From Peptococcaceae bacterium (GTDB lineage: Bacteria; Bacillota; Desulfitobacteriia; Desulfitobacteriales; Syntrophobotulaceae): a stretch of DNA of 35,710 nucleotides. Below the pieces are notes generated by a model. The model did not search any database, was not told where the DNA came from, and worked only from the letters and a program-made list of their open reading frames with translations. Made by a program: the position numbers and the translations under genes. The DNA lies in the NCBI GenBank assembly GCA_009778595.1, contig WRJI01000018.1, forward strand, positions 1 through 35,710. The letters run 5' to 3'. Each line of letters starts with the position of its first letter. Position 1 is the stretch's first letter. Of the stretch, positions 2,899-31,200 are shown one piece after another.

Positions 2899-5800
2899 AT
2901 GTATTTTCAGGATTTAGTTATGCTTTTGAACCAGTTTTGGGGAGAACAAGGATGTTTGCTTGTGCAACCTTATGATATGGAGAAGGGTGCCGGGACGATG
3001 AATCCGGCGACTTTTCTGCGGGCGTTGGGACCGGAGCCTTGGAATGTGGCCTATGTTGAGCCTTCCCGGCGGCCTACGGATGGACGGTATGGGGAGAACC
3101 CCAATCGATTGCAGCATTATTTTCAGTATCAGGTGATTTTGAAGCCGTCCCCTGATAATGTGCAGGAGCTTTATTTGGAGAGCTTGGAACGGTTGGGTAT
3201 TAATCCGGCGGAGCATGATATTCGGTTTGTTGAGGATAATTGGGAGTCACCGACGCTGGGGGCTTGGGGATTGGGCTGGGAGGTCTGGCTTGACGGCATG
3301 GAGATTACCCAGTTTACGTATTTTCAACAGTGCGGCGGGATCGATTGTCAACCGGTGAGCGCGGAGATTACTTATGGATTGGAGCGGTTGGCTACTTATA
3401 TTCAAGGGCGGGATAACGTGTTTGATGTGAGTTGGGCTCCGGGGATCCGGTATGGGGACGTCTATTTGCAGAATGAGAAGGAGTTTTCCCGGTATAATTT
3501 TGAGGCGGCGGATGTGGAGGCTCTCAGGCAGTGGTTCAATATGTATGAGAAAGAAGCCGGGCGGGCTTGTGAGGCGGAGTTGGTGTTGCCGGCTTATGAT
3601 TATGTGTTGAAGTGTTCACATTGTTTTAATCTTTTGGAGGCTCGTGGGGCGATCAGTGTCGCGGAGCGAACGATCTATATCGGCAGGGTGCGGGCGTTGG
3701 CCAAGATGTGTGCCCAAGGTTTTTTGAAACAGCGGGAGACGTTGGGATATCCTCTGCTTAGGGATAGTAAAACCCACAGCAAAGAAGCCGGTTTAAGTGC
3801 ACCGGTGAATAAATTGTCAGAAGAGAGGCCGGACTCGCCGAATTGTCAATTCCTCTTGGAGGTTGGTATGGAGGAGCTTCCGGCCCAGTTTGCGGTGAGT
3901 GTGGTTGAACAATTAACTGTGAACACGCGCCGGATTTTGGATGAGTGGGGGTTGGGTTACGGAGGGGTGCGCGCTTTTGTGACGCCTCGGCGGTTGGCTC
4001 TTTTGGTTGAGGGGTTGTCTGTGCAGCAGCCTGATTTGACTGAGGAGGTTAAGGGGCCTGCTGTGCGGGCGGCTTATGATGATGGGGGGGCGCCGACGAA
4101 GGCTTTGCTGGGGTTTATGCGCGGTCAGGGTGTGTCGGAGAAGGATGTTTTTCGGCGGGAGTTGAATGGCGCGGAGTATGTTTATGGGCGCAAGTTTAGA
4201 CCGGGGCAGCGGACTGAGGTATTGTTGCCTGATTTGATTGAACGGGTGTTGGGAGGGTTGGTTTTCGCCAAACCTATGCGTTGGGGAGATCTGACCTTGC
4301 GGTTTGCCCGACCTGTGCGGTGGCTGACGGCACTTTTTGGGGACCGCACGGTGGCGTTTCGGTTTGCCGGGCTGACATCGGGGCGCTCAACCCGGGGGCA
4401 TAGGGTTTTGGGTGGTCAGACGCTGGTGCGGTTGAGTTCGGCGGATGAGTATGTTGAGGCGCTGCGGTCGGTTGGTGTGGTGGTTGATCAGCAGGAGCGG
4501 AGGGAATTGATTCTGAAGCAGATGGCTGAGTTGGAGAGCGTTGTTGGCGGATCGGCTGAGCCGGACGAGGATTTGTTGACGGAGATTGTTCATTTGGTGG
4601 AGTATCCGACGGTGTTTGTCGGGAAGGTTGGGAGCGGGTATCTGTCTTTGCCGGATGAGGTGATTACAACACCGATGAAGCAGCATCAACGATATTTTCC
4701 GGTGCGAGATGCCGAGGGGAAGCTGTTACCGGTGTTTTTTGGGGTGCGTAACGGGGGGCGGGAGGCTCTGGAGGTTGTGATTCAAGGAAATGAGCGTGTG
4801 TTGAAGGCCCGGCTGGAGGACGCGGCTTTCTACTATCGTGAGGATGCCCGGCGTGGGTTGGACGATTATGTGCGGGATCTGGACGGGGTTGTTTTCCATG
4901 AACGCCTTGGCAGTGTGGGGCAACGGGTGGATCGGTTGTGCCGGCTGGCTGGTGCTTTGGCTGAGAAGGCGGGTCTGGCGCCGACGGTGCGGGAGGCGGT
5001 TCTGCGGACGGCGGGTTTGGCAAAAGCTGATCTGGTGACGAAGATGGTTTATGATTTTCCCGAGTTGCAGGGGATTATGGGAGGGTATTACGCAGGGTTG
5101 CAGGGGGATTCGGCTGAGGTGGCTTTGGCGATTCGGGAGCATTATCAGCCTCGTGCCGCCGGTGATGCTTTGCCGCTGTCTGTTGAGGGCCGGATTGTGA
5201 GTTTGGCGGATCGGTTGGATGCTTTGGCGGGTTTCTTTGGGGCGGGGATTCAACCGACGGGATCTCAGGATCCTTTTGCGTTACGGCGGCAGGCTCAAGG
5301 GCTGGTGGCTTTGTTAATGGATGAAGGGACACCTGTGGTGTGGCCTTTGGCGGCGTTGATTGAGTTGGCTTTTGAGGGGTTTGTGGAGCAGGGGATTTTT
5401 GCGGCGGAGGATGTGGGTTCGAAGAGCCAAGGGAGCGGGATTGTCCAGACGGTGGAGGATTTCTGCTTGCAGCGTGTTCGGTATGTTTGGCTGGAGAGCG
5501 GGAAGATTCAGGGTTATGACGAGGGGTTGCCTTATGATGTGGCTGACGCTGTGTTGGCTCGTTCAGGTTATCCGTTTGGGAATATTTGTTTGGCCGGCAA
5601 GGGGCCGCGTGCCTTGACACAACAGGCGTTGGCTCTGGCGGTGTGCCGGGGACGTGAGGACTTTGAGGGATTTCTGAATGCCTATGTACGGTGTGTGAAT
5701 TTGAGCCGAAAAGCGTTTTCGAGCAACGGACAACGGATAACGGAAGAGGACGGACGGTTGGAAACAGAACCGGATGTCGTCGGAACAGAGGTATTGAACC

Positions 5801-6051
5801 ATCAGGCAGAACGGAGTCTGCTGGCGGCATTGGATCGTGTTGAGCCGTTGGTGCAGACTTTTTTGGATGATGATGATTTTGTCGGAGCCTTTGAGGCGGG
5901 GCTGGGTGTTGTGTCTTGTGTTGAGTCCCTTTTTGATGCGGTTATGATTATGGATCCGGATCCGCAAATCAAGAGGGCGCGATTGGCTTTGTTGCGGCGT
6001 TGCGTGGCGGTGTTGGGATGTCTGGGCGATCTGACGGTGTTGGCAGGATAG
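2899..6051 (+). CDS. glyQS: Glycyl-tRNA synthetase, fused alpha and beta subunits
   Basis: The 1050-residue protein joins both subunits of the bacterial alpha2-beta2 GlyRS, which charges tRNA-Gly. Residues 1 to about 290 are the GlyQ catalytic part ([73 protein letters not shown]). A non-conserved linker (about 291-313) leads to the GlyS part, beginning [14 protein letters not shown], with [26 protein letters not shown], an HD-like region ([39 protein letters not shown]) and a C-terminal helical tRNA-binding region. GlyQ and GlyS are separate genes in Bacillus and E. coli; fusions are known, for example in Chlamydia. The ATG at 2899 follows GGAGGG. No stop or frameshift separates the halves. 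The coding strand is strikingly rich in G and T compared with ppdK downstream. Confidence 0.96.
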
Positions 6052-8102: not shown

Positions 8103-9191
8103 ATGTCGAACAATTGTTATGATTTATACGCCCAAGGCGATCCCGGAGAACCCGGCCCCGCCGGGGTAGAAGGACCAACCGGCCCTCAAGGGCCCCGCGG
8201 CCCTGTGGGACCTCAAGGGGAGAAAGGAGACAAAGGAGATCCGGGTAACCCCGGTCCCGTCGGGCCCAGAGGGCCGGTGGGCCCTCAGGGTGCCCGGGGA
8301 CCCCAAGGGGTTCGGGGCGATATTGGGCCCCAAGGAGATCCGGGACACCTGGGGATTCAGGGTGTGAAAGGCGACCCCGGACCTATGGGTCCGGCAGGCC
8401 CTATGGGCCCTATCGGGCCTAAAGGAGATCCGGGTTCCGTGGGCCCCCAAGGGCCGGCCGGTCCGGAAGGGGTTACCGGCCCCGGCGGTTCCGTGGGGCC
8501 CCAAGGCCCCATGGGCCCTGAAGGTCCAGCCGGAGCAGAAGGCCCCATGGGTCCGGAAGGTCCCATGGGCTGCCAGGGTCCCCAAGGAGATCAGGGCCCG
8601 CAAGGTGATACAGGCCCCCAAGGGGTTCAGGGTATCATCGGCCCCACCGGTCCCATGGGAGCCGGAGATACAGGCCCTACCGGGCCCACAGGAGCAGTCG
8701 GAGCTGTTGGTCCTACCGGTTCTGCCGGAGCAGCCGGAGCCAGGGGTCCAACCGGTTCAATCGGGGCCACCGGAGCCATGGGTCCGACCGGCCCCACAGG
8801 AGCCACCGGTGCCGCCGGCCCCGTCGGCCACACCGATATAGTTCATTATTCGGTCACCGAAACGGCGACAGGGGCCTTGTACAACGGTAAACCCGTTTAC
8901 AGGCAAACCTTTTCAGTCAGTATTACCAGCCCCGCCAATGTTGAAGCTACCGGGATCCTCATCGCTACGCCAAATTATGTCGAGACAATCATCAACATCG
9001 GAGGCTCTTTCGAAACCAACAGCAGTATAACGAATATGGGAAAACACCCAATTAAATCAATTCCTATAACGAATTTAATCTATTTTCTTATTTTTATAGA
9101 TAGTGGCGGCATTTTACGTTATCGCACTTCTTCGGTTCTTGAACGTACCAGCGCGTCTGCGGAGGCCTGGGTAGATTATACGAAAGTCTAA
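8103..9191 (+). CDS. Collagen-like repeat protein with phage-like C-terminal domain (paralogue 1)
   Basis: This 362-residue protein has a short N-terminal tail ([11 protein letters not shown]), about 235 residues of Gly-X-Y triplets, and a globular C-terminal domain from about 248. Many triplets are GPQ, GPM, GDP and GAT, with charged GEKGDKGDP blocks, so it should form a collagen-type triple helix. The C-terminal domain carries [20 protein letters not shown] and ends [10 protein letters not shown], a pattern I associate with the trimeric ends of phage tail or host surface proteins. No signal peptide, LPXTG motif or membrane segment is visible; this matches spore-surface collagen-like proteins such as BclA, which have no Sec signal, or phage fibres. 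AAGGAGA precedes the ATG. The next gene is a paralogue in the same orientation 58 bp downstream. Spore exosporium or appendage location is inference. Confidence 0.9.
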
Positions 9192-9249
9192 TTCGGGATG
9201 CGCCCGGAAGAATGGCTCTACTAATACTAAAACAGCAAGGAGAGATTCC

Positions 9250-10323
9250 ATGGCAAACAACAATTGCAATTCATATCCCAAAGGCGAACCGGGGGATTCG
9301 GGACCGATAGGGGTACAAGGACCCACCGGTCCCACGGGGCCTCGGGGTCCTATGGGACCAAGGGGAGAGAAAGGTAGCAAGGGCGATCCCGGTTGCCCCG
9401 GGCCCTACGGTCCGTTGGGTTCGATGGGATCACAAGGCGCCCGAGGCGCACAAGGGGTTCGTGGAGATATAGGGCCCCAGGGAGATTCAGGATGTCAAGG
9501 CCCCCAGGGAACGAGAGGCAATCCGGGACCTCAGGGGCCTACCGGACCTATAGGGCCTATCGGTGCTCAAGGCGACCAGGGATCTATAGGATCCAGAGGG
9601 CCAATGGGTGCGGAAGGCTCTGCCGGCATTGAAGGTCCTGTCGGTTCCCAAGGTCCCATAGGACCAGAGGGCCCGGCGGGAGCAGAAGGCCCTATGGGCA
9701 CCGAAGGCGCCTTGGGATGCCAGGGTCCCGATGGGGAACAGGGACCTCAAGGTGAACAGGGATTCCAAGGGGAGCAGGGCATTACCGGTCCCATTGGGCC
9801 CACCGGAATTGGCACTACCGGCGCCACCGGTCCTGCCGGTGAAGGGGGTGTCACCGGACCTACCGGTACTACTGGAGCCGAAGCCGTCGGCCCAACAGGA
9901 CCAGTGGGAGAGGCTGGAGCCACCGGCCCCACAGGACCCGTAGGAGCGGTTGGCGCCATCGGTCCCACGGGCCCAAATGCCGATTATTCGTCCACCGAGA
10001 CAGCAACAGGGGAGATGTACAATGGCAAGCCTGTTTACCGCCGATCCTTTGTCATCAGTATTACCACTGCCGCCAATATCCAAAATAGCGATATACTTGT
10101 TCTTGATATCAATTATTTCGATACGTTGGTCGACGGCGGAGGTTCATACAGAACCGGTAACGGATTGGAACAGGTTGCGATAAATGCCGCATACCTCTCA
10201 ACACCCAGCTCTTATTTCGCTGTCAGGATGCCCGCTACTGGTACTTTGAATTATTTCACCATGACACCCTACACGCGAACCAGCATGCCCGCACGGATCT
10301 GGATTGATTATACGAAACTATAA
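9250..10323 (+). CDS. Collagen-like repeat protein with phage-like C-terminal domain (paralogue 2)
   Basis: A 357-residue tandem paralogue of the preceding gene with the same plan: N-terminal tail [18 protein letters not shown], about 230 residues of Gly-X-Y triplets with one interruption (GAEAVGPTG), and a C-terminal domain beginning [20 protein letters not shown] and ending [10 protein letters not shown]. The N-terminal 130 residues and the domain edges are close to paralogue 1, whereas the middle of the C-terminal domain ([16 protein letters not shown]) differs more, as expected if that face binds a ligand or diversifies. AAGGAGA precedes the ATG. The stop codon is four bases before the second palindromic element, whose internal hairpin and T-run may end the transcript. 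The two proteins could form heterotrimers; this is inference. Confidence 0.9.
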
Positions 10324-15741: not shown

Positions 15742-16104
15742 ATGATGCGTGAATCTATTTTTGAACGATTTGATTTCACGAGTATTGGGCAAGCCATCAA
15801 AACAGCTCGAAGTTATCAGGGAATCACGCGAGAGAAACTCGCCGAGATGTTAGATTTGGCTCCCCGTTATATCATGGCGATTGAAAACCAAGGACAACAT
15901 CCCAGTTTTCAGGTTTTCTACGAACTCATTACGATGTTTAATATACTCGTTGATCAATATTTATTCCCGGAAAACCCCGAACTTGAAAGCGTGCAACGGC
16001 AGAATCTTTATAGCCTGCTTGATTCTCTTGACGAAAAAGATCTCATTATTATTGAAAGCACGGTAAGAGGGATTATCAAAGCCAAAACAGAAGGCAAGAT
16101 TTAG
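15742..16104 (+). CDS. Xre-family helix-turn-helix regulator
   Basis: A 120-residue protein with a Cro/CI-type HTH in residues about 12-70 (IGQAIKTARSYQGITREKLAEMLDLAPRYIMAIENQGQHPS) and an acidic helical C-terminal half ending in ESTVRGIIKAKTEGKI. AGGAGG lies nine bases before the ATG (a second ATG follows immediately). Proteins of this shape are common single-domain regulators in Clostridia, often linked to mobile DNA. It stands alone, with a truncated permease gene and an ATPase convergent to it, so its target is unknown. Confidence 0.85.
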   Translation: MMRESIFERFDFTSIGQAIKTARSYQGITREKLAEMLDLAPRYIMAIENQGQHPSFQVFYELITMFNILVDQYLFPENPELESVQRQNLYSLLDSLDEKDLIIIESTVRGIIKAKTEGKI

Positions 16105-16134
16105 TGGTCCCCTACAACTCAGAGAACCAAGCCG

Positions 16135-16365
16135 TCATTGCCCTTTTAATACCTCAACAGGATTACAATTCTCTATCTTGGAGATTGGCCGTATTAATGA
16201 GACGGAAATGATAATGGTATTTATGATGATAACCATTAATATGCTTACTGCTGTTATTCTAATGATTTCTCCATAGAAAACTATGTTCGTTTTGTCGGAG
16301 AACTGCGCAGAAGTCAAAAAGATGATTACGAACCAAGAATCAAAGAAATTGTTGCCAGCTTTCAA
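16135..16365 (-). pseudogene. C-terminal remnant of an FtsX/MacB-type ABC permease
   Basis: The 76-residue frame has one hydrophobic helix (ITAVSILMVIIINTIIISVSLI) followed by RPISKIENCNPVEVLKGQ and a stop. The ending is the usual close of FtsX/MacB-type permeases, in which a last helix is followed by a R-x-I-xx-x-P-V-E-x-L pattern. The first several hundred residues are missing, and no ABC ATPase partner is nearby, so this is most likely decay debris. The Met at 16365 is probably just an internal codon. Confidence 0.6.
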
Positions 16366-16408
16366 GTCATAGGAGAATGATCAACATTCATAGTTACTTT
16401 CGGTATCG

Positions 16409-17863
16409 CTATTGATTCTCGAAAGGTAAGCTGAACAAAATGACGTCTTCATGGCCTGCGACCAAGTCTTGAAGTTGTTTGGTGAATCCGGATATTGAGA
16501 AGAGCACAAATCGTTCATGGCGCGAGTCGTTCTTCCAATCCACAAGGCTTTTTTTGTAGAGGAGCCTATCGAAGACGTCAACATCCATAGGTTTTGTTTG
16601 ATATCGGCATTCGGCGAATACGATTTCGTCGCCGACGCTGTCCAGCGCTACCAAATCGATCTCTTCGTTCTTGTCCCACCAAGGTCCCAACTTGGTAAAG
16701 CTGAGGTGCCCTTGTCTGGCCAGTAACCACATCTCGCTCTGACATACGGATTTGTATACTGAAACCATGTGGTGTGGCGCGAAGTATTTCTTGATGTGTT
16801 GCAGAACAGGAGTCATATCGCCCAATTCAAGTCGGGTTTTTTCGGGATACACGAACCGAAACCAGAAAAGCAGAAAATTGTCTTTGATCCGGTAGTAAGC
16901 TAATTTGCTTTTTTCCGGATTGGTTTCGGTGATGGGAACAACATACTCCAATATGTCCAAGTCGATGAGGGTTTTGATGTGTTTTGGCAAAAGACCTTGC
17001 TTCATCTGAAGATCGTTGCTGATCTCACCAATACGGTTGTTGCCGGTAGCGACGCTTTTGAGGATGGAGAAACAAGCGCCCGGATCCGTCGTTTCGTTTT
17101 TCAGCAAACCGTATGGCTCTTCAAACAGAAAGCCCTGTTTACTGAGAATATGACGACCGATTTTGGCGAGGAGGTATGATCTTTTGTGGGAACCTGATTC
17201 CGCGCGTGTGGTGGTTTTTTTGCTGAAGACTTCGATGTAGAAAGGAACGCCGCCAGTCACAGCGTAGTGTTCGATCAATTCTTTGTAGGATAAACCGTCA
17301 AAGAATTCATGGTAATACCGAAAATCGATATCGCGCAACATGAGTTGTCCGGTTCGGCGGCCATAAAGAGGACTGTTGGCGCTCAATGTCTGGGCATCCA
17401 TCATGTGAATAACAGATCCGCACAAGATAACCATGATGTTTTCATGTTGCAAATGTTTATCCCATATGCGCTGGAAGAGGGAAGGGAAAGATGGGTCTGT
17501 TTTGCCTAAGTATTGAAACCCGTCTAAAACCAGAACAAGGCGCTGATCAGGGATGCGTTCCGCGAGGGTTTGGAAGAGAAGTTCCCAATCGGCGTCATCA
17601 GTGTCTAAAGTGTTATCGAAGGGAAGGGGCTGAGGATGATAATCGTTCAGATTAATCTGTTTGGCAAATTCCCGCATGTTCTCAAGAGGGGATTCTTCTG
17701 TAGCCAAAAAAAACACGAAGGGTTTATCTTTAACAAACTCTCGAATCAGAGAGGTTTTGCCCATGCGGCGGCGACCGTAAAGAACGACCATCGAGGAGGC
17801 TGTGCTGTTGTATTGTTCGTTGAGGAACCAGAGTTCCTGTTGTCTGTTGATAAAGTCATTCAT
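16409..17863 (-). CDS. AAA-type ATPase with DUF234 nuclease-like C-terminus
   Basis: This 484-residue protein belongs to the archaeal-type ATPase family (ATPase_2 plus DUF234). Walker A is VVLYGRRRMGKTSLI (around residue 30) and Walker B is RLVLVLDGFQYL (around residue 110). A winged-helix region follows the ATPase (NRIGEISNDLQMKQGLLPKHIKTLIDLDILEYV, about 275-310). The C-terminal part contains WWDKNEEIDLVALDSVGDEIVFAECRYQ, a restriction-endonuclease-like pattern in which the usual E-x-K ends in E-C-R. The start at 17863 follows a GGGGTGA site. Function of the family is unknown; defence or mobile-element roles are proposed in general but not shown here. It is a single gene convergent with the Xre gene. 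Confidence 0.85.
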   Translation of the reverse strand: MNDFINRQQELWFLNEQYNSTASSMVVLYGRRRMGKTSLIREFVKDKPFVFFLATEESPLENMREFAKQINLNDYHPQPLPFDNTLDTDDADWELLFQTLAERIPDQRLVLVLDGFQYLGKTDPSFPSLFQRIWDKHLQHENIMVILCGSVIHMMDAQTLSANSPLYGRRTGQLMLRDIDFRYYHEFFDGLSYKELIEHYAVTGGVPFYIEVFSKKTTTRAESGSHKRSYLLAKIGRHILSKQGFLFEEPYGLLKNETTDPGACFSILKSVATGNNRIGEISNDLQMKQGLLPKHIKTLIDLDILEYVVPITETNPEKSKLAYYRIKDNFLLFWFRFVYPEKTRLELGDMTPVLQHIKKYFAPHHMVSVYKSVCQSEMWLLARQGHLSFTKLGPWWDKNEEIDLVALDSVGDEIVFAECRYQTKPMDVDVFDRLLYKKSLVDWKNDSRHERFVLFSISGFTKQLQDLVAGHEDVILFSLPFENQ

Positions 17864-17992
17864 ATTAAATCACCCCGTATAAGTGTGTAAGAATCTGTTA
17901 TCGCAGAATGCCAAGCACTGAGCCTTTCTATTATAACTTGGTTGCTCCTTGATGTCTATGTCAAAAAAATACTCATTTCGCCAAAAAAACTG

Positions 17993-18021
17993 TTGACTAT
18001 TTCATATTAGTGTGTTAGTGT
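17993..18021 (+). promoter_or_regulatory. Promoter and candidate operator of the gntR-ABC operon
   Basis: TTGACT at 17993-17998 and TAGTGT at 18016-18021 are 17 bp apart. The -10 lies in a GTGT...ACAC imperfect inverted repeat (about 18012-18033) ending 14 bases before the gene, a suitable position for autoregulation by the GntR protein. Confidence 0.5.
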
Positions 18022-18047
18022 AGTGGTACACATGGGGAGGTGGTATT

Positions 18048-18497
18048 ATGCAAATGTGGGACCAGTGGAGCTTAGGATTCGATGATCGAATGCCGATTTA
18101 TCGTCAGATTATTCTCCAATTCAGCCGGGCTTTTGTTCGGGGAGATATTCAACCGGGAGATCGGATTCCGTCCATTCGCGAATTGTCGGTGATTCTTAAA
18201 GTAAACACCAACACGATTCAGCGGGCATATCAGGAAATGGAGCGGGACAAATTGATCAGCAGCAAACGGGGAACAGGGTATTTTTTTACGGAGGACGAAA
18301 ACATGACAGAACAGATACGCCGTGATTTGGCGCAGGATTCCTTGCGACGTTTTGTGGAAGAGATGCGTGCGCTTGGATGCCCGGACAAAGAAATCTTGGA
18401 TGAGTTAACGTCATTTATGGCAACATACATGGCGAATGCGACATCTCCCATGATGTCAAAAGTGAAAGGAGATGAGCCCTGTGAAGCCGGTTCTTGA
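18048..18497 (+). CDS. GntR-family regulator, YtrA subfamily
   Basis: The 149-residue protein has a GntR winged helix (about residues 12-80: PIYRQIILQFSRAFVRGDIQPGDRIPSIRELSVILKVNTNTIQRAYQEMERDKLISSKRGTGYFF) and only a short helical C-terminal tail, the YtrA type. Such proteins usually sit at the head of an ABC transporter operon and repress it until a cell-envelope antibiotic is sensed. GGGGAGG precedes the ATG. The last 17 bases overlap the ABC ATPase gene, so translation is coupled. Confidence 0.9.
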   Translation: MQMWDQWSLGFDDRMPIYRQIILQFSRAFVRGDIQPGDRIPSIRELSVILKVNTNTIQRAYQEMERDKLISSKRGTGYFFTEDENMTEQIRRDLAQDSLRRFVEEMRALGCPDKEILDELTSFMATYMANATSPMMSKVKGDEPCEAGS

Positions 18498-19200
18498 AAT
18501 CGTTGGTTTGAAAAAACATTTTATCAGATGTGAAGCTTTGCGTGGCGTGGATATGTCCATACCAGCCGGACAAATCGTGGGTTTGCTGGGGCCAAACGCT
18601 TCCGGTAAAACCACTCTGCTGAAGATTGTGGCCGGGTTACAACAGCCAACAGGGGGACAGATAAATTATTTTGAAGATGCCGAACCTGGGCCAAAGGCTC
18701 GGAAGACCATTGCTTTTTGTCCTGACACGATGTCGTTTCCGGGATGGATGCGGGTGAGAGACGCTTTTGGGTTTTATCGGGAAATGTACCCTGATTATGT
18801 TCAGGATCGTGCCGATGAGCTGATACGTATTTTGGAGCTTGATCAGCTTCAGAGCACTCATGTCCGCCGGTTATCAAAAGGGATGAAGGAGCGGTTGATG
18901 CTCAGTTTGACGTTCTCAAGGGAAACGCGTCTATATTTGCTTGACGAGCCTTTGGATGGGATTGATCCCGTGGGGAAGATGCGGGTTATTGACGCGATCC
19001 TCGCTATGCAGCCGGAAGGGTCTTCAACATTGGTGTCAACCCATTTGGTTAAGGATATTGAACGGATTTTTGACAGCGTCTTCTTTCTGTCCAAGGGGCA
19101 GATTGTTTTTTCGGGCGCTTGTGATGCCATGCGGGAGGAGAACAATCGAACTGTGGAACAAGCGTATTTGGAGGTGTTTATTCGTGAAGGCACAATTTAA
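18481..19200 (+). CDS. ABC transporter ATP-binding protein
   Basis: An ABC ATPase of about 239 residues with Walker A GPNASGKTT, Q-loop region near FCPDTMSF, signature LSKGMKER (in place of the common LSGGQ), Walker B LYLLDEPLDGID and the switch His in STHLVKDI. I choose the GTG at 18481 because AAAGGAG at 18465-18471 is about nine bases upstream of it; the in-frame ATG at 18472 abuts that site with no spacer. The subgroup resembles the ATPases of YtrA-regulated exporters. It should pair with the membrane protein that follows and power export or lantibiotic/bacitracin-type resistance; substrate unknown. Confidence 0.92.
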   Translation: MKPVLEIVGLKKHFIRCEALRGVDMSIPAGQIVGLLGPNASGKTTLLKIVAGLQQPTGGQINYFEDAEPGPKARKTIAFCPDTMSFPGWMRVRDAFGFYREMYPDYVQDRADELIRILELDQLQSTHVRRLSKGMKERLMLSLTFSRETRLYLLDEPLDGIDPVGKMRVIDAILAMQPEGSSTLVSTHLVKDIERIFDSVFFLSKGQIVFSGACDAMREENNRTVEQAYLEVFIREGTI

Positions 19201-19939
19201 GCACGCGTTTATGGCGAGTTTGTATGCCCGGGGCGGCGTTTTTGCCGTGATTTTTGCTATGTTTTTTGTTTTTATAGTCTTGGGGTCTTTGGGTTGGTTG
19301 CCTTTTCCTGCCCAAGTGACGGCTGTGGCTTTAGGGGGGATTTCCATCGCTGTTATGATGGCGGCAAATATTGTTGGCGATGTTATGATAGCTCGTGGTA
19401 TGTTCTTGGCCCCCAGTGCGTATCTTCAGGCGCTGACGCCCGTTCCCCGGCGGAATACTTTATTGGCGGGCGTTATTGTTATGGCGGTATGGGATGTTGT
19501 GACAACGGCGGTTGTGATTGCCGGCGAAGTGTGGATGGTGATGGTGCTGGACGGCGAAAGTTTTGGCGGTTTCGTATGGGAGACCCTCAGTGACAGCGGT
19601 GTGTGGATTTCTGGGCTGGTAGGTACAGCTCTCCTGGTGTCGGGGTATCTTCTCATCATCATGATTATTCTGTTCTGTGTTACGATCAGAAAGTCATTAT
19701 TCTATCAAAAACCGGCCGGTGGAGTGTTGACCGCGCTAACAGCGCTGGGGATTCTTTACGCGGTGAGTCTGTCGCAGTTGGTGCTTGTTCCTTTTGGCTC
19801 GGTTAGCCGGTTCGGTTTGCTTATCAATATTAATCTTGGCGGTATGGGCATGGTTGTGTATGCACTGCTGATTTTGTCGGAGGTTGTGGCCTTGTTTGTC
19901 CTGACATCCAAGCTTATGGAAAGGAAGATGAATTTATGA
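19184..19939 (+). CDS. ABC transporter permease
   Basis: A 251-residue integral membrane protein with about six hydrophobic segments (for example VFAVIFAMFFVFIVLGSLGW, VIVMAVWDVVTTAVVIAGEVW, LLIIMIILFCVTI, LLILSEVVALFVLTSKLM). The start is GTG at 19184, preceded by GGAGG at 19170-19174; the longer frame to 18941 only shadows the ATPase gene. It overlaps the ATPase by 17 bases and the next gene by 4 (ATGA). It is the membrane half of the exporter encoded in this operon. No conserved family motif is visible beyond the topology. Confidence 0.85.
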   Translation: MKAQFKHAFMASLYARGGVFAVIFAMFFVFIVLGSLGWLPFPAQVTAVALGGISIAVMMAANIVGDVMIARGMFLAPSAYLQALTPVPRRNTLLAGVIVMAVWDVVTTAVVIAGEVWMVMVLDGESFGGFVWETLSDSGVWISGLVGTALLVSGYLLIIMIILFCVTIRKSLFYQKPAGGVLTALTALGILYAVSLSQLVLVPFGSVSRFGLLININLGGMGMVVYALLILSEVVALFVLTSKLMERKMNL

Positions 19940-20685
19940 ATAGGAAGAGGATACTGCTCTTGGCTTTCTGCGCTGTTCTTGTCATGGGATGTTTCCCCGG
20001 TTGTGTGTCGGTAAGTATGTCTCCTGTAGGCGGGGTTGTTGGTGAGGGGGCCTTGGAAAGCTATACTTTCCCGGTCAGTGAGGTTACGGAGATCAATATG
20101 AATATCTATTGTGACATCCGATATTATGCCGGCTCTTCCGATACGGTTACACTACAGATTCAGCCTAACCTTCGGGAATATGTCGTTCTTGAAGAGTCTG
20201 GCGGGGTGTTGACAATTCGTTCTACGAGGAATATTTCTTGGGATTGGTCGGCGGATAAAGTCCCGATCCTGACAGTTACATCACCGACATTGAAGGGCGT
20301 GTCTCTGTCGGGAGCAGGGGAATTTAAAGCGTATGACACAATAACCGCTGATACATTCACAATGAAGTTGGGCGGTGCGGCTTCGGGACAGGCTGATCTT
20401 GATGTGGGTATGTTGGTAGTCAATATGAGCGGTGCCGGGGAATTCCGGTTATCCGGCCAGGCTGATGAGGCTGTGCTTGATATGGCCGGGGCAGGCAGTT
20501 TGGACGCTTTGTTCCTGAAAACGCGCGTGGCGGAGGTCAATCTGGCAGGTGTTGGTATGGTGAAAGTCAACTGTTCCGAAAGATTGCGTATCAGCGCGGG
20601 CGGCATGGGGACGGTGGAATATATGGGGTCGCCGAATGTTGACATCAGCCGGGGCGGTTTGGTGAGTGTGAGGAAATTGGATTAG
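19936..20685 (+). CDS. Lipoprotein with a head-GIN (DUF2807) domain
   Basis: The 249-residue protein starts with a lipoprotein signal peptide (RKRILLLAFCAVLVMGC, lipid Cys19). The rest is a beta-rich DUF2807 or head-GIN domain: FPVSEVTEINMNIYCDIRY, LEESGGVLTIRS, LKGVSLSGAGEFKAYD, MLVVNMSGAGEFRLSGQ, LDMAGAGSLDA, VNLAGVGMVKVNCSERLRI. The repeating SGAGE/LAGVG turns fit a right-handed beta-solenoid. Members are exposed on the cell surface and are of unknown role. Being last in the gntR-ABC operon, with a four-base overlap, it may sense or bind the exporter's substrate; this is inference. Confidence 0.9.
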   Translation: MNRKRILLLAFCAVLVMGCFPGCVSVSMSPVGGVVGEGALESYTFPVSEVTEINMNIYCDIRYYAGSSDTVTLQIQPNLREYVVLEESGGVLTIRSTRNISWDWSADKVPILTVTSPTLKGVSLSGAGEFKAYDTITADTFTMKLGGAASGQADLDVGMLVVNMSGAGEFRLSGQADEAVLDMAGAGSLDALFLKTRVAEVNLAGVGMVKVNCSERLRISAGGMGTVEYMGSPNVDISRGGLVSVRKLD

Positions 20686-20916: not shown

Positions 20917-20946
20917 TTGTGGGCGAAGCCCACCCTGTGTTATAAT
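20917..20946 (+). promoter_or_regulatory. Possible promoter of the PBP-like gene
   Basis: TTGTGG at 20917-20922 and a perfect TATAAT at 20941-20946 are 18 bp apart, with the gene starting 42 bases later. The spacer contains GTGGGCGAAGCCCAC, a hairpin of the kind seen at repeat ends. Confidence 0.45.
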
Positions 20947-20987
20947 GGCATTGTGCGACAAGCTCCAAGAGGAGGTAATGACTCATA

Positions 20988-23651
20988 ATGTCTGCGCAAG
21001 ACAGAAACAGACCTGATTTCACATCCCGGTTGGCGGCGTTCCAAAACCGTACGCCTAAACAAGACGACCCCAGAACGAAAGGACCCGGCCGCGGCACCGT
21101 TAAAGAGCGTCACACCGAAGACAACTTGATGGTGGTTGCTCCCAGCCCCAAGAATCTTAGAAAAACTAAGAACCTTGGGGTAGCGACCCAAAAAACAACC
21201 CGGCTTAAAAGGACACTGCTCATCACCGCGCTGTTGTTTCTGTTGGGTTGTCTGGGTGTTGGGGCTCTTGTGATCGCGGCTGTTATGAATGTCCCGGAAT
21301 GGGATCCGTCTCTGATAGATGGTTGGAAAGAGCCGGCGGTGGTTTATGATAATAACGGACAAGAATTCCTCAGGCTCGATTCGACGGAGAACCGTTTGGC
21401 TTTCAAATATGAGGATCTCCCGACTCTCTTGATTGAGACCATAATTGCGATTGAAAAGGATAACGGCGAGACACTGGAATCCCTGTTGGCTCAAAGCGTC
21501 TATCATGGCTATGGATTTAGTCCGAGTCATACTTTCCGGATGTCTCTCCTCAAATCGCGGATTAAACGCAATTATTCCGAGGAAGAAATCGTCGTGACCT
21601 ATCTGACGCATCTTATCTTTGGGAATACGGCTTTTGGCGTACGGTCCGCCTCTCAAATCTATTGTGGCAAAGAACCCGCGGCCCTCTCTGTTGCGGAAAT
21701 TGCTCTGATTTGCGGTTTGCCCCAGGAACCGGGCAAGAACGATCCCTATTTCGATCCGGATCAGGCGCAGAAACGCCGTACCGAAGTTCTCGATATCATG
21801 CTGTCCCATAAACTCATAACCGACGACCAGTATAAACAGGCTAAAGATGAAGCTTTTGTTTTCGTAAATAATGTCAAAAAAGGTGATGTTTCGATAATTC
21901 TCGGATCGTCCCAAGAAGCGGAACATCAATATTTTGTGGATTATGTGGTCAGCGCTCTGTTGACTGAGAACATGTATACGGATGTTTTGGGATCCGGTCA
22001 GGATCTGGCTTGGACGGTCTATAACAGCGGTCTTCGTATTTACACCACCGTGGATCCCAAGATTCAGAAAGTCGCGGAAGAAGCCATAAAGGAACCGGCT
22101 TTTTTCCCGGAGATTAATGAGGCCAATCCTATCCAAGGAGCGATTGTCGTGCTCGACAACGATACCGGGGGTGTGGCGGCCATGGTTGGCGGCCGGGAAT
22201 GGAGAAATCAGAAACGTCTTACCAATAGAGTGTTGAGCAAACACGAGATAGGATCCTTAGCAGGGCCCTTGATTGCCTACGCACCGGCGATAGAAAAAGG
22301 CGGTTATTTTGCCGGTTCGGTATTCGACGACGCGCCTGCAACCTTTGACGGCTGGACACCCAAAAACGCTAATAACCGTTACAACGGCTTGATTACCATG
22401 AGGGAAGCATTGGTCAACCCCGCCAATATTTACACCGTTAAGCTCTATCAGGATGTGGGCGCAGCCTATTGTTGGGATTTTGCCTCCAATAACCTTGCTC
22501 TCGATCTAAGTGAGAATGAAAAAAGCCGACTTCATAACGCCTTGGGGGCTTTTGACGCGACACCGCTGGAGATGGCTCGGGCTTATTCCGCTTTTCCTAA
22601 CTTGGGCACGATTAACGAACCTCAATGTATTACAAAAATTACCGCTGGTGATAACGAGGTTCTGTTGGCGCCCGCGGTGAAGAAAACCAAAGCCATGAAA
22701 GAAACCACCGCTTTTGTTGTGAGTGATATGATGCGATCCGCCGTTGTTAGCGGCAACGCCAAAGAAGCGGCTATTGACGATTGGTATATTTGCGGCAGAC
22801 CGGGAACCGCCATTCTCGACCCTGAAAAATATGGGAGCAGTACCGGGACCCCGGATGCTTGGTTTGCCGGATACAGCCCCGCTTATACGGCTGTGGTCTG
22901 GGTTGGATACGATGTCGCCAATGAGACCCACTTTCTGACATCGGAATATGGTGGTGAGTTCGGCGGATCCAAACCTGCCGGTTTATGGAATCAAATCATG
23001 CGAAAAGCTCATGAAGGGATGGCCGTGAAGACGGACTTAACCAAACCTGCGGATGTTGTGGATATTGTCTTTGATGCCTTGTCGGGGTTCAGACCCAGTC
23101 AGCTGACGCCGGCCGCCCTTGTGAAGACAGAGATCGGACCGGGGGACGGGGCGCCCTCACAGGAGAGCGATGTGTGGACTGTTTTGGGTGTTGATCCCGA
23201 TAATCCCGGTTTCCTGGCAATGCCGGGGAGTCCTTCATTGCAAAAAACCTTCTTGGCTCTTCAGCGTGACTTCTGGGCGGAGAAAGAGCTCCCCTACAAG
23301 CCGCCTACAGAGGTTTCCACAGTCAACACGATTCCAAGGCCTGTGTTCTCGACAAGATATGTTAGCAACCTTATAAACGGTCAACAATTGACGCTGTTGT
23401 TTTCGGTGCCGACGAACGCTACCGTGAGCGAATATATAGCTATTGTCCGGATTTATAGTGCAAACCCGGATGGGACAATCAGCCAGACCCAGGTTGGAGC
23501 TTACAATCTGGCATTGGAGAACACGGCTCCGTCTATTAGAATGTCTCCCACCTTATCAACCCGTAGCACATATTATTGTGTCGTTTTCCTTATTGATCGG
23601 GCTACCGGCCTCCAAGGTGAAAGCAGTGTTCCTGTCAGATTTACCACCTAA
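20988..23651 (+). CDS. Class A penicillin-binding protein-like protein with degenerate active sites
   Basis: The 887-residue protein has the class A PBP layout: basic cytoplasmic tail, membrane anchor (about 75-99), GT51-like region (about 115-290), transpeptidase-like region (about 380-675) and a beta-rich C-terminal domain (about 785-887). The fold is well kept, for example YLTHLIFGNTAFGVRSASQIY, ALICGLPQEPGKNDPYFDP and DAWFAGYSPAYTAVVWVGYD. The catalytic motifs are not. In GT51 the ED-x-x-F-x-x-H motif reads IAIEKDNGETLE, and the G-x-STITQQ motif is replaced by SPSHTFRMS. In the transpeptidase, SxxK reads S423-L-A-G426, SxN reads P478-A-N, and KTG reads R604-P-G. The frame is fully open, so it is probably a structural or regulatory pseudoenzyme. 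It precedes the dGTPase-like gene. AGGAGG lies upstream of the ATG. Confidence 0.88.
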   Translation: MSAQDRNRPDFTSRLAAFQNRTPKQDDPRTKGPGRGTVKERHTEDNLMVVAPSPKNLRKTKNLGVATQKTTRLKRTLLITALLFLLGCLGVGALVIAAVMNVPEWDPSLIDGWKEPAVVYDNNGQEFLRLDSTENRLAFKYEDLPTLLIETIIAIEKDNGETLESLLAQSVYHGYGFSPSHTFRMSLLKSRIKRNYSEEEIVVTYLTHLIFGNTAFGVRSASQIYCGKEPAALSVAEIALICGLPQEPGKNDPYFDPDQAQKRRTEVLDIMLSHKLITDDQYKQAKDEAFVFVNNVKKGDVSIILGSSQEAEHQYFVDYVVSALLTENMYTDVLGSGQDLAWTVYNSGLRIYTTVDPKIQKVAEEAIKEPAFFPEINEANPIQGAIVVLDNDTGGVAAMVGGREWRNQKRLTNRVLSKHEIGSLAGPLIAYAPAIEKGGYFAGSVFDDAPATFDGWTPKNANNRYNGLITMREALVNPANIYTVKLYQDVGAAYCWDFASNNLALDLSENEKSRLHNALGAFDATPLEMARAYSAFPNLGTINEPQCITKITAGDNEVLLAPAVKKTKAMKETTAFVVSDMMRSAVVSGNAKEAAIDDWYICGRPGTAILDPEKYGSSTGTPDAWFAGYSPAYTAVVWVGYDVANETHFLTSEYGGEFGGSKPAGLWNQIMRKAHEGMAVKTDLTKPADVVDIVFDALSGFRPSQLTPAALVKTEIGPGDGAPSQESDVWTVLGVDPDNPGFLAMPGSPSLQKTFLALQRDFWAEKELPYKPPTEVSTVNTIPRPVFSTRYVSNLINGQQLTLLFSVPTNATVSEYIAIVRIYSANPDGTISQTQVGAYNLALENTAPSIRMSPTLSTRSTYYCVVFLIDRATGLQGESSVPVRFTT

Positions 23652-28555: not shown

Positions 28556-29296
28556 CTATTTTGGCATATCGTACAGAATGAGCTGATAGGCGATTGCGTT
28601 GCCGGAGGAGTTGATCGCGTACACAATGAACCCATAGTATTTCTGTTTGGTATCGTTCCCCAAGCTGGTGAAAGTAGTTCCTGTAACCTTCGTGGTATCC
28701 CAGCCCGCTTTGGTTCTGTCGCCCCGGTAGTAGAAGACTTTGTAGTAGGAAGCGCCGGAAACAGCATTCCAACTGAGTTTGATCTGGCTTTTATCCGCAC
28801 CCTTGACAGCATTGATAGATTTAATCAGAGAACCTGGCACACCTGCTTCAGAGCGTTCCTGAGCGAAAATCTGTGATTTTTTCTTCATCTGCATGTCGTA
28901 GCAGATATAACCCATATCAATGATTTTTCCGGAGGTGTTCACCGCACACACCCAAAAGTTGTAATGACTTTGGGATGTATCATTACCCGGGCTGGTAAAA
29001 CTGGTGCCGGTAACTTTTGTGGTATCCCAGCCTTCCTTCGTGAAGTCGCCCCGCTGGTAATAAACCTTGTAGTAAGATGCACTGGGGCAGGCAGGCCAAG
29101 TGAGTTTCACTTGGGTCGCATCAGCACCTTTGGAGGCAGTAAAGTTAATACCCCACATGTTGCCGCCATGGGTCAGCTGCCAAGGAGTGGGACGCGGGGG
29201 CCAAGCAGGGGGTGCGGCATTGGCCGGTGCTGCAGGGAGCAAGAGGGACGCACAGACGAATAATGTGACGACAAGACTCATCATGGGTTTTTTCAT
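28556..29296 (-). CDS. Secreted protein with two Fn3-like modules
   Basis: The 246-residue protein has a Sec signal peptide (MSLVVTLFVCASLLLPAAPANA, cleavage after about residue 27) and two fibronectin-type-III-like modules, about 48-135 and 163-246. Each has the pattern KGAD..Q.KL.W, then ASYYKV.Y.RGD.TK.GWDTTKVTGT.F.S.GNDT. The modules are almost copies of those in the larger upstream protein, so both genes arose by module duplication. There is no cell-wall anchor or catalytic domain. AAAGGAGG lies nine bases before the ATG. It starts 32 bases after the larger gene, so the two form an operon. Probable role is binding at the cell surface or in the medium; ligand unknown. Confidence 0.85.
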   Translation of the reverse strand: MKKPMMSLVVTLFVCASLLLPAAPANAAPPAWPPRPTPWQLTHGGNMWGINFTASKGADATQVKLTWPACPSASYYKVYYQRGDFTKEGWDTTKVTGTSFTSPGNDTSQSHYNFWVCAVNTSGKIIDMGYICYDMQMKKKSQIFAQERSEAGVPGSLIKSINAVKGADKSQIKLSWNAVSGASYYKVFYYRGDRTKAGWDTTKVTGTTFTSLGNDTKQKYYGFIVYAINSSGNAIAYQLILYDMPK

Positions 29297-29328
29297 AACT
29301 TGAATCCTCCTTTTTCTGGATAAACATA

Positions 29329-31200
29329 TTATTTGGGCATCGTATATTTGATCGGCGTCGCGGCTATGATATTCCCGGAGGCGTTCACCGCGTATACCGT
29401 ATAAGTGTAAGAGCTCTGTTTGGTGTCATTTCCCAGGCTGGTGAAGTTGGTTCCTGAGATTTTCACAGTATCCCATCCTTCTTTGGTGCCGTCGCCCCGT
29501 TTGAAATACACCTTGTAATAGGAAGCGCCCGGATAGGATGTCCAGCTGAGTTTCACCTGTGTTGCGTCAGAGCCTTTGACAGCTTTCAACCCGCTGAGAG
29601 AAGGCATGGTGTATTTGATGCTGCTACTTGTCAGGACGTTCCCGGTCGCGTTCATCGCGTAAACCGTATAGGTGTAGAAGCTCTGAGTGACGTCATTTCC
29701 CAAGCTGGTGAAAGTTGTGCCTGTGACTTTTGTGGTGTCCCAGCCTTCTTTGGTGCCATCACCTCGCTTGAAATACACTTTGTAATAAGAAGCGCCGGGG
29801 TATGCGCTCCAACTGAGCTTTACCAGGGTCGCATCCGTACCTTTGACAGAGGTCAAACCGGTTAAAGCTGGTATAGGGGGCATGGTGTATCTCACACTGG
29901 TACTGGTGAGGGTTTTCCCGGTGGCATCTACAGCGTAAACCGTAAAGTCGTAATATTTCTGGGTAATATCATTGCCCAGGCTGATAAAACTGGTTCCTGT
30001 GACTTTTGTGGTATCCCAACCTTCTTTGGTGGCATCGCCCCGTTTGAAATATACCTTGTAGTAGGACGCGCCGGCGACGGCGTTCCAGCTGAGCCTCACT
30101 TGGGTCGCATCCGCGCCTTTGACGGCAGCTAAGCCGGTCAGAGCCGGTGGAACCGGTGGAACCGGCGGAACCGGAGGAACGGTGTATTTGACACTGGCAA
30201 TAGATTTAGCAGATCCATTAACCATAGCGTACACTGTAAATTTGTAGTAGCTCTGACTGGGGTCATCAATCTGATAATTAAAATTGGTCCCCGTGAGATT
30301 CGTGGTGGCCCAGCCGCCGCCGGTTCCGTCGCCTCGTTCATAGTACACCTGGTAGGAATGGGCAAACCTGGCAGGATCCCAACTAAGATTAACCAGAGAA
30401 GCATTTGCGCCCTTAGCAGCGGTCAACCCGGTAAGAACATCCGTATATGAACCGAGCCAATCTGGTATAGGCCACATCACGTTCGCAAGCCAGAGGACTG
30501 TGGTTTGACCGCCGACACGGGGATCCTCCCAATAGTATGTGTGAGAGATGTAATAGCGCTCACGCCATTCAGAAGTTGACCACGAATTCAATGTAAGCAT
30601 ATACGTTGAGCTGTTACATGTTTCTGGCAGAGCCCCGTACCAGTCAGCCTGCTGGGGTGCCGCATTGAAATTGTTGAGCCATTGACCTTCTGTTGTCGCA
30701 ACAGCTGTTGATCGCGGCAATGTCCAATTCCAGGCGGTTGACCAAAGAACCTTATTATCCTTATCATAAATAACGATGTTGCGATCATTCTGGAAGCTGA
30801 GCTTTGCCGCGTCCTTGTTTGCGGTATTGCTTGTCCACTGTGCTACCAGATCTTTGCTGTACAGCACAAGGTTACCGTCTGGCTGGAAATACAAATAGGA
30901 TTCGATAACCTCCCAGTCACTTGGATAAGAGGGAGGATACGTTTCCGGTTGAACACCAATGCAAAATTCTCCGGGCAAGAAATCACCACCGTCAAGCCAT
31001 CCCAAAGAGACAGAATCCTCAAGCCTGTTGATCATAACATCCCCTGTAAGAATCACGGGATTCCTCATTGTTGCCGGTGTCATACTCTTGGCCTTATCCT
31101 TGATGTCGCTTGGGGCAGCCGCATCAGCGGGAGATGTGAGCAATAATAAAGAAGCGATGACAAAAAATACTCCTGCGAAACCCATCATTGTCTTGTTCAT
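29329..31200 (-). CDS. Secreted bulb-lectin protein with four Fn3-like modules
   Basis: The 623-residue protein has a signal peptide (MMGFAGVFFVIASLLLLTSPADA), then a B-lectin-like domain (about 50-175) with the sugar-binding type motifs FQPDGNLVLY and FQNDRNIVIY (pattern QxDxNxVxY) and VLWSTAWN. A middle region of unknown fold (about 176-255) leads to an Fn3-like module (about 260-345), a VPPVPPVPPVPP linker and three further modules (about 355-440, 445-530, 533-623) that are strongly alike (YYKVYFKRGDGTKEGWDT). Bulb lectins bind mannose; the second site has Arg in place of the Gly, so binding may differ. No anchor is visible. It is likely a secreted or loosely attached glycan-binding protein, transcribed first in a pair. 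Confidence 0.88.
   Translation of the reverse strand: MNKTMMGFAGVFFVIASLLLLTSPADAAAPSDIKDKAKSMTPATMRNPVILTGDVMINRLEDSVSLGWLDGGDFLPGEFCIGVQPETYPPSYPSDWEVIESYLYFQPDGNLVLYSKDLVAQWTSNTANKDAAKLSFQNDRNIVIYDKDNKVLWSTAWNWTLPRSTAVATTEGQWLNNFNAAPQQADWYGALPETCNSSTYMLTLNSWSTSEWRERYYISHTYYWEDPRVGGQTTVLWLANVMWPIPDWLGSYTDVLTGLTAAKGANASLVNLSWDPARFAHSYQVYYERGDGTGGGWATTNLTGTNFNYQIDDPSQSYYKFTVYAMVNGSAKSIASVKYTVPPVPPVPPVPPALTGLAAVKGADATQVRLSWNAVAGASYYKVYFKRGDATKEGWDTTKVTGTSFISLGNDITQKYYDFTVYAVDATGKTLTSTSVRYTMPPIPALTGLTSVKGTDATLVKLSWSAYPGASYYKVYFKRGDGTKEGWDTTKVTGTTFTSLGNDVTQSFYTYTVYAMNATGNVLTSSSIKYTMPSLSGLKAVKGSDATQVKLSWTSYPGASYYKVYFKRGDGTKEGWDTVKISGTNFTSLGNDTKQSSYTYTVYAVNASGNIIAATPIKYTMPK

Follow-up and report, generated by a model that had tools for sequence, protein, structure and literature searches.

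Gene and domain architecture

The window considered here, a stretch of 35,710 nucleotides from an uncultured termite-gut bacterium of the Peptococcaceae (genome G000), carries on its plus strand an uninterrupted reading frame for a protein of 887 residues that resembles a class A PBP (Table 1). Coordinates, Pfam domains and fold match agree on the class A architecture that had been proposed for this frame at first reading, with the usual order of an N-terminal transmembrane helix, a GT51 domain, which is partial, and a transpeptidase domain (Pfam, AlphaFold2, fold match). The transpeptidase profile PF00905 matches residues 384-661 with 98 bits, and the Transgly profile PF00912 aligns with its C-terminal half only (profile positions 93-177 of 178, 67 bits). 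Among NCBIfam models the protein scores highest against the PBP1A family TIGR02074; its 345 bits are short of the curated cut-off of 508.75. The partial GT51 domain and the low TIGR02074 score mark the protein as a class A PBP by descent, the first half of its GT domain having eroded.

Modelling of the structure, one of the checks proposed with the original prediction, gave an AlphaFold2 model with a mean pLDDT of 80.7 and values mostly above 90 in the transpeptidase domain. The predicted fold is closest to that of Staphylococcus aureus PBP2, the top Foldseek match in the PDB (2olv; E 2.6e-40, TM 0.81 on target), although the model was built on a 46-sequence alignment of mostly active homologues and may lean to the canonical fold. 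The model predicts that the fold has survived the loss of the chemistry. The protein thus shares with the PBP1A family, which includes S. aureus PBP2 and Listeria PBP4, the order of tail, transmembrane helix, GT51 and transpeptidase domain as well as the fold, but differs by the absence of GT51 motifs I-III and of key residues in each of the three transpeptidase motifs.

Table 1 Features of the pseudo class A PBP gene and its product (positions in the window)
Feature	Position	Strand	Basis
Class A pseudo-PBP of 887 aa with neither catalytic centre intact	20988..23651	+	ORF, Pfam, alignment, fold match
Extended -10 element TGTTATAAT	20938..20946	+	Read directly; TGCTATAAT at equivalent place in orthologue
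Shine-Dalgarno sequence AGGAGG, 12 nt 5' of ATG	20970..20975	+	Read directly
N-terminal cytoplasmic tail, residues 1-67	20988..21188	+	Comparison with orthologue and paralogues
Transmembrane helix, residues 68-100	21189..21287	+	AlphaFold2 secondary structure, hydrophobic sequence
GT51 remnant with motifs IV-V largely kept and I-III lost, residues 141-290	21408..21857	+	Pfam, alignment
E156-K157, site of 28-column deletion	21453..21458	+	Alignment
Transpeptidase domain, residues 381-660, fold kept (predicted)	22128..22967	+	Pfam, AlphaFold2, Foldseek; dN/dS 0.13
SxxK position, S423-L-A-G426 (orthologue SVAS)	22254..22265	+	Alignment
SxN position, P478-A-N480 (orthologue PAN)	22419..22427	+	Alignment
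KTG position, R604-P-G606 (orthologue RPG)	22797..22805	+	Alignment
Beta-rich C-terminal extension with a fast-evolving end, residues 691-887	23058..23648	+	Predicted structure, orthologue comparison

Elsewhere in the window, the alpha and beta chains of glycyl-tRNA synthetase are apparently fused in one frame of 1050 residues (2899-6051); in sister genera they are encoded by separate genes. Two adjacent proteins of about 360 residues with collagen-like Gly-X-Y repeats and similar C-terminal domains are encoded at 8103-10323, and two adjacent secreted proteins of near-identical FN3-like repeats (KGADATQVKLSW...YYKVYFKRGD) on the minus strand at 28556-31200.

Orthologue and genomic context

A full-length orthologue, 62-63% identical, is present in a second species of the genus (genome G001), and its sequence also occurs in WRHI01000014.1, labelled 'Peptococcaceae bacterium isolate Nt197P3bin107'. 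In a published MAG set, Nt197 stands for the humus-feeding termite Neocapritermes taracua (PMC7024585). In both genomes the gene is followed by dgt, then dnaG and rpoD, and the same ABC transporter and GIN-type genes are found on the 5' side, with three extra frames in between in G001. The genus has a third genome, G002, whose contig ends after about 450 noncoding bases 5' of dgt, and in four sister-genus genomes (L082, L083, L084 and L086) PPDK is directly followed by dgt with no PBP gene between them. The adjacency of PPDK and dgt in these four genomes indicates that the pseudo-PBP gene is a lineage-specific insertion. The housekeeping context that had been claimed for it therefore holds for the conserved dgt-dnaG-rpoD order, but not for the PBP gene itself. 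The lineage-specific genes for an XRE regulator, an ATPase, a GntR protein, an ABC transporter and a GIN-type protein at 15742-20685 also sit, together with the PBP gene, between PPDK and dgt, a pair of genes that adjoin each other in sister genera; the site is likely to be an insertion hotspot.

Among 25 family genomes searched, the gene is present in G000 and G001 only, both of which are drafts. A scan of 84,980 species genomes for peptide patterns returned only the G001 sequence, the patterns being exact peptides of 7-8 residues that distant relatives could escape, and a search of plasmids for orthologues gave only other PBPs of less than 60% identity. No cell-division or wall-synthesis operon lies beside the gene.

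The element TGTTATAAT is not listed by a consensus promoter scanner, which also requires a -35 match. The stretch CGACAAGCTCCA.GAGGAGG is conserved in the orthologue with nearly the same spacing. At the protein level, the first 42 residues of the cytoplasmic tail are well conserved between the orthologues (31/42 identical, 74%) and the next 31 residues less so (12/31, 39%). AlphaFold2 predicts a short helix at residues 11-19, and no match to the tail was found among the paralogues. Conservation of this basic tail despite the lost extracytoplasmic chemistry may point to a contact in the cytoplasm. Class A PBPs that depend on GpsB have an N-terminal motif of the (S/T)Rxx(R/K) type and require a GpsB/DivIVA protein. 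This motif is absent from the tail of the orthologue, with one membrane-proximal match in the G000 protein only, and a search of the host genome (92% complete) gave no match to the DivIVA/GpsB family. Recruitment of the GpsB type was rejected because the orthologues have no tail motif in common and this 92%-complete genome gave no DivIVA-family match.

Loss of the catalytic motifs

The pseudo-PBP was aligned with 40 class A PBPs that have the usual motifs and come from the same genus, family and order; columns conserved in at least 93% of these copies were taken as invariant. In the region of GT51 motifs I-II, 36 residues are missing, in gaps of 28 and 8 columns. Motif I (EDxRFxxHxG) is deleted beyond its first residues, the larger gap following E156-K157, motif II (GGSTxTxQ) is replaced by DNGETLESL before the smaller gap, and motif III (RKxxE) reads HTFRM. 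Neither orthologue has GT51 motifs I-III with their catalytic glutamates. The catalytic motif and the STITQQ segment are indeed gone, as first noted, but mostly by deletion and not just by substitution.

In the transpeptidase domain, the alignment places SLAG, PAN and RPG (S423, P478 and R604) at the SxxK, SxN and KTG positions, exactly as had been read from the sequence. The substitutions amount to K426 to G, S478 to P, K604 to R and T605 to P; the loss claimed for the three motifs is thus correct for these residues, but both orthologues retain S423, N480, G606 and T607. The G001 orthologue has the same GT51 gaps and has lost the same K426, S478, K604 and T605, from which it follows that inactivation is older than the species split. 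It is the sole orthologue found and is equally dead, and no copy with active motifs was detected at the dgt locus of the third genome of the genus or of the four sister-genus genomes. Intact KTG, EDxxF or STxTxQ sequences were not found anywhere in the 887 residues, and none of the remaining S..K and S.N matches is at a motif position, so the reading also survives a search for motifs elsewhere in the protein.

Of the 165 invariant columns, 114 are kept in both pseudo-orthologues. Transpeptidase losses common to the two affect 4 of 8 motif columns versus 6 of 68 others (p = 0.009, Fisher), and common GT51 losses are likewise enriched in the catalytic motifs (p = 0.008, Fisher), values that depend on the choice of columns counted as motif. 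This enrichment, together with the same gaps and losses in the orthologue, places the motif loss beyond chance. The comparison confirms, at the level of sequence, that both catalytic centres are disabled, and the protein is an enzyme-family homologue without the essential catalytic residues, as expected of a pseudoenzyme.

Origin and selection

In the phylogenetic tree, the two pseudo-PBPs form their own deep lineage inside the 19 class A PBPs collected from the genus; an SH-aLRT of 100 separates this set from 27 homologues of the family and order. By its position in the tree, the pseudo-PBP is a product of a radiation of class A PBPs specific to the genus. A long stem (0.63 changes per column) leads to the pair, in keeping with a role that changed ahead of the species split. 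The host genome has five motif-intact class A PBPs in tandem beside a tyrS-like gene (contig C58). These are the nearest relatives of the pseudo-PBP and belong to the same radiation, but their GT and transpeptidase motifs are intact and their N-terminal tails unlike. A search also revealed four SEDS proteins and, on contig C103, one monofunctional GT; other proteins can therefore take care of polymerisation and cross-linking. The tandem array (L038:2477-17521) is partly shared with G001 (contig C64); other genomes of the family mostly have a single gene of this kind and at most one class A PBP that is more distant.

The SxxK lysine is also missing from four other class A PBPs of G001 and G002 (L042:9544-13267, L043:9388-13141, L044:3020-6834 and L045:416-4181, with LAAV, SAVM, NLAQ and SLAH, respectively, at the SxxK position). 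They have this loss and the radiation in common with the pseudo-PBP, but differ by a full-length GT51 domain with mostly intact motifs, by separate tree branches and by their neighbour, in each case a membrane protein of about 580 residues with BNR/sortilin-like repeats. No such membrane protein was found outside the genus among the 25 genomes searched. The two genes are possibly a module with a transpeptidase-dead partner.

The G000 and G001 pseudo-PBP genes differ by a dN of 0.278 and a dS of 1.345 (NG86, as for all dN/dS values given here), a ratio of 0.207. Five orthologous pairs of motif-intact tandem paralogues from the same two genomes gave 0.144-0.215. When only the shared core (residues 191-660) is compared, dN/dS is 0.157 for the pseudo pair (bootstrap 95% CI 0.097-0.210) and 0.115-0.190 for the functional pairs. 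Among the large soluble domains the ratio is lowest, 0.127, in the transpeptidase domain; identity between the orthologues falls to 28% over the C-terminal 97 residues. Measured against the five functional pairs, selection shows no relaxation since the split, and both frames are free of stops and frameshifts at a dS of about 1.3. The original prediction, which took the absence of stops and frameshifts as a sign of selection, is borne out by purifying selection as strong as in the functional paralogues. Since the losses also predate the species split, we consider the protein very probably to be a conserved pseudoenzyme; selection for a non-catalytic role withstood a check for both findings that could have overturned it, intact motifs elsewhere in the protein, and an active orthologue with relaxed selection on this copy.

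Possible functions of the pseudo-PBP

The most likely role, although we would give it no better than an even chance, is regulation or scaffolding of the active class A PBPs without catalysis, with the cytoplasmic tail as anchor. By sequence, the ancestor was an active class A PBP, and the lineage arose within the genus-level radiation. Before the species split it lost GT motifs I-III, the lysine that serves the transpeptidase as general base, the serine of SxN and both the lysine and the threonine of KTG, and purifying selection has acted on it since. Presumably made from its own promoter and located in the membrane as other class A PBPs are, the product should be unable to polymerise lipid II or to form an acyl-enzyme, and would act by contact. 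The kept transpeptidase shell and the GT motif IV-V scaffold may bind the active class A PBPs or their partners, and the lineage-unique tail may bind a cytoplasmic factor, with the outcome that wall-synthesis complexes are recruited, spaced or dampened.

This role is favoured by the coexistence of active copies, by the retention of scaffold and tail under selection, and by structural PBP roles known from engineered mutants. For example, PBP 2B of Bacillus subtilis has a structural role in the division complex without catalysis, as found with the engineered S309A variant (PMC5656894); it differs from the present protein in being a class B PBP and a laboratory mutant, not a natural pseudoenzyme. 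Against a regulator or scaffold are the missing DivIVA/GpsB-family match, which leaves a possible cytoplasmic partner not evident, the retention of S423, N480, G606 and T607, which is needless for a purely structural role, and the restriction of the gene to two draft genomes, where it adjoins no wall-synthesis operon.

The four retained residues, together with the low dN/dS of the transpeptidase domain, may instead suggest a ligand sensor, the main rival, in which the transpeptidase cleft binds a stem peptide or beta-lactam non-covalently and reports via the tail or a partner. Use of a PBP for sensing has a precedent in PbpP of Bacillus thuringiensis (PMC8092216). However, PbpP controls an ECF sigma factor and its response needs beta-lactam binding (PMC8092216); neither is evident for the pseudo-PBP, in which such binding should be impaired. 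Furthermore, the retention of these residues is not above the base rate for invariant columns, the threonine of KTG, on the strand that faces the substrate, has become a proline, no signalling domain is present and no sigma or anti-sigma gene is adjacent except the housekeeping rpoD. We therefore regard a sensor as rather unlikely.

Much less probable still is migrated or unusual catalysis, by which S423 or other residues would confer a residual activity as hydrolase or transpeptidase. Both orthologues retain S423, and a review on pseudoenzymes mentions cases with migrated catalytic residues (PMC10211241), but K426 has become G or S depending on the orthologue, S478, K604 and T605 are replaced as well, and near S423 no conserved replacement lysine is apparent beyond those of active homologues. 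A decaying gene on its way to loss would fit the absence from G002, at least beside dgt, and the divergent C-terminus, but this reading is already contradicted by the orthologue comparison (dN/dS far below 1, intact frames, ancient losses in common, conserved promoter and ribosome-binding site) and has very little probability. An assembly, frameshift or alignment artefact is hardly conceivable even with draft genomes, as the same in-frame changes occur in two separate assemblies of species that are 62% identical at this protein.

Returning to the regulator or scaffold, a more specific version is that the doubly dead class A PBP is dedicated to the tandem active PBPs, with which it would form a membrane hetero-assembly that has the tail as its handle; the partial deaths elsewhere in the genus would then hint that enzymes have turned into regulators more than once. 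This proposal is tentative, and we consider it somewhat more doubtful than the general role.

Class A PBPs count among the classic antibiotic targets, and they are viewed as enzymes. A literature search (open-licence papers) revealed no natural class A PBP that is dead in both domains, and natural pseudoenzymes in the PBP family appear little described in that literature. Domain hits alone would label the present gene as an active PBP1A-type enzyme, which calls for caution in annotation. Structural and regulatory roles of PBPs have so far been indicated mainly by engineered dead mutants. A natural, selected copy from which both centres have been removed would isolate the non-catalytic part of a class A PBP, and the surfaces and tail residues that were kept after catalytic loss may serve as a map of its partner contacts.
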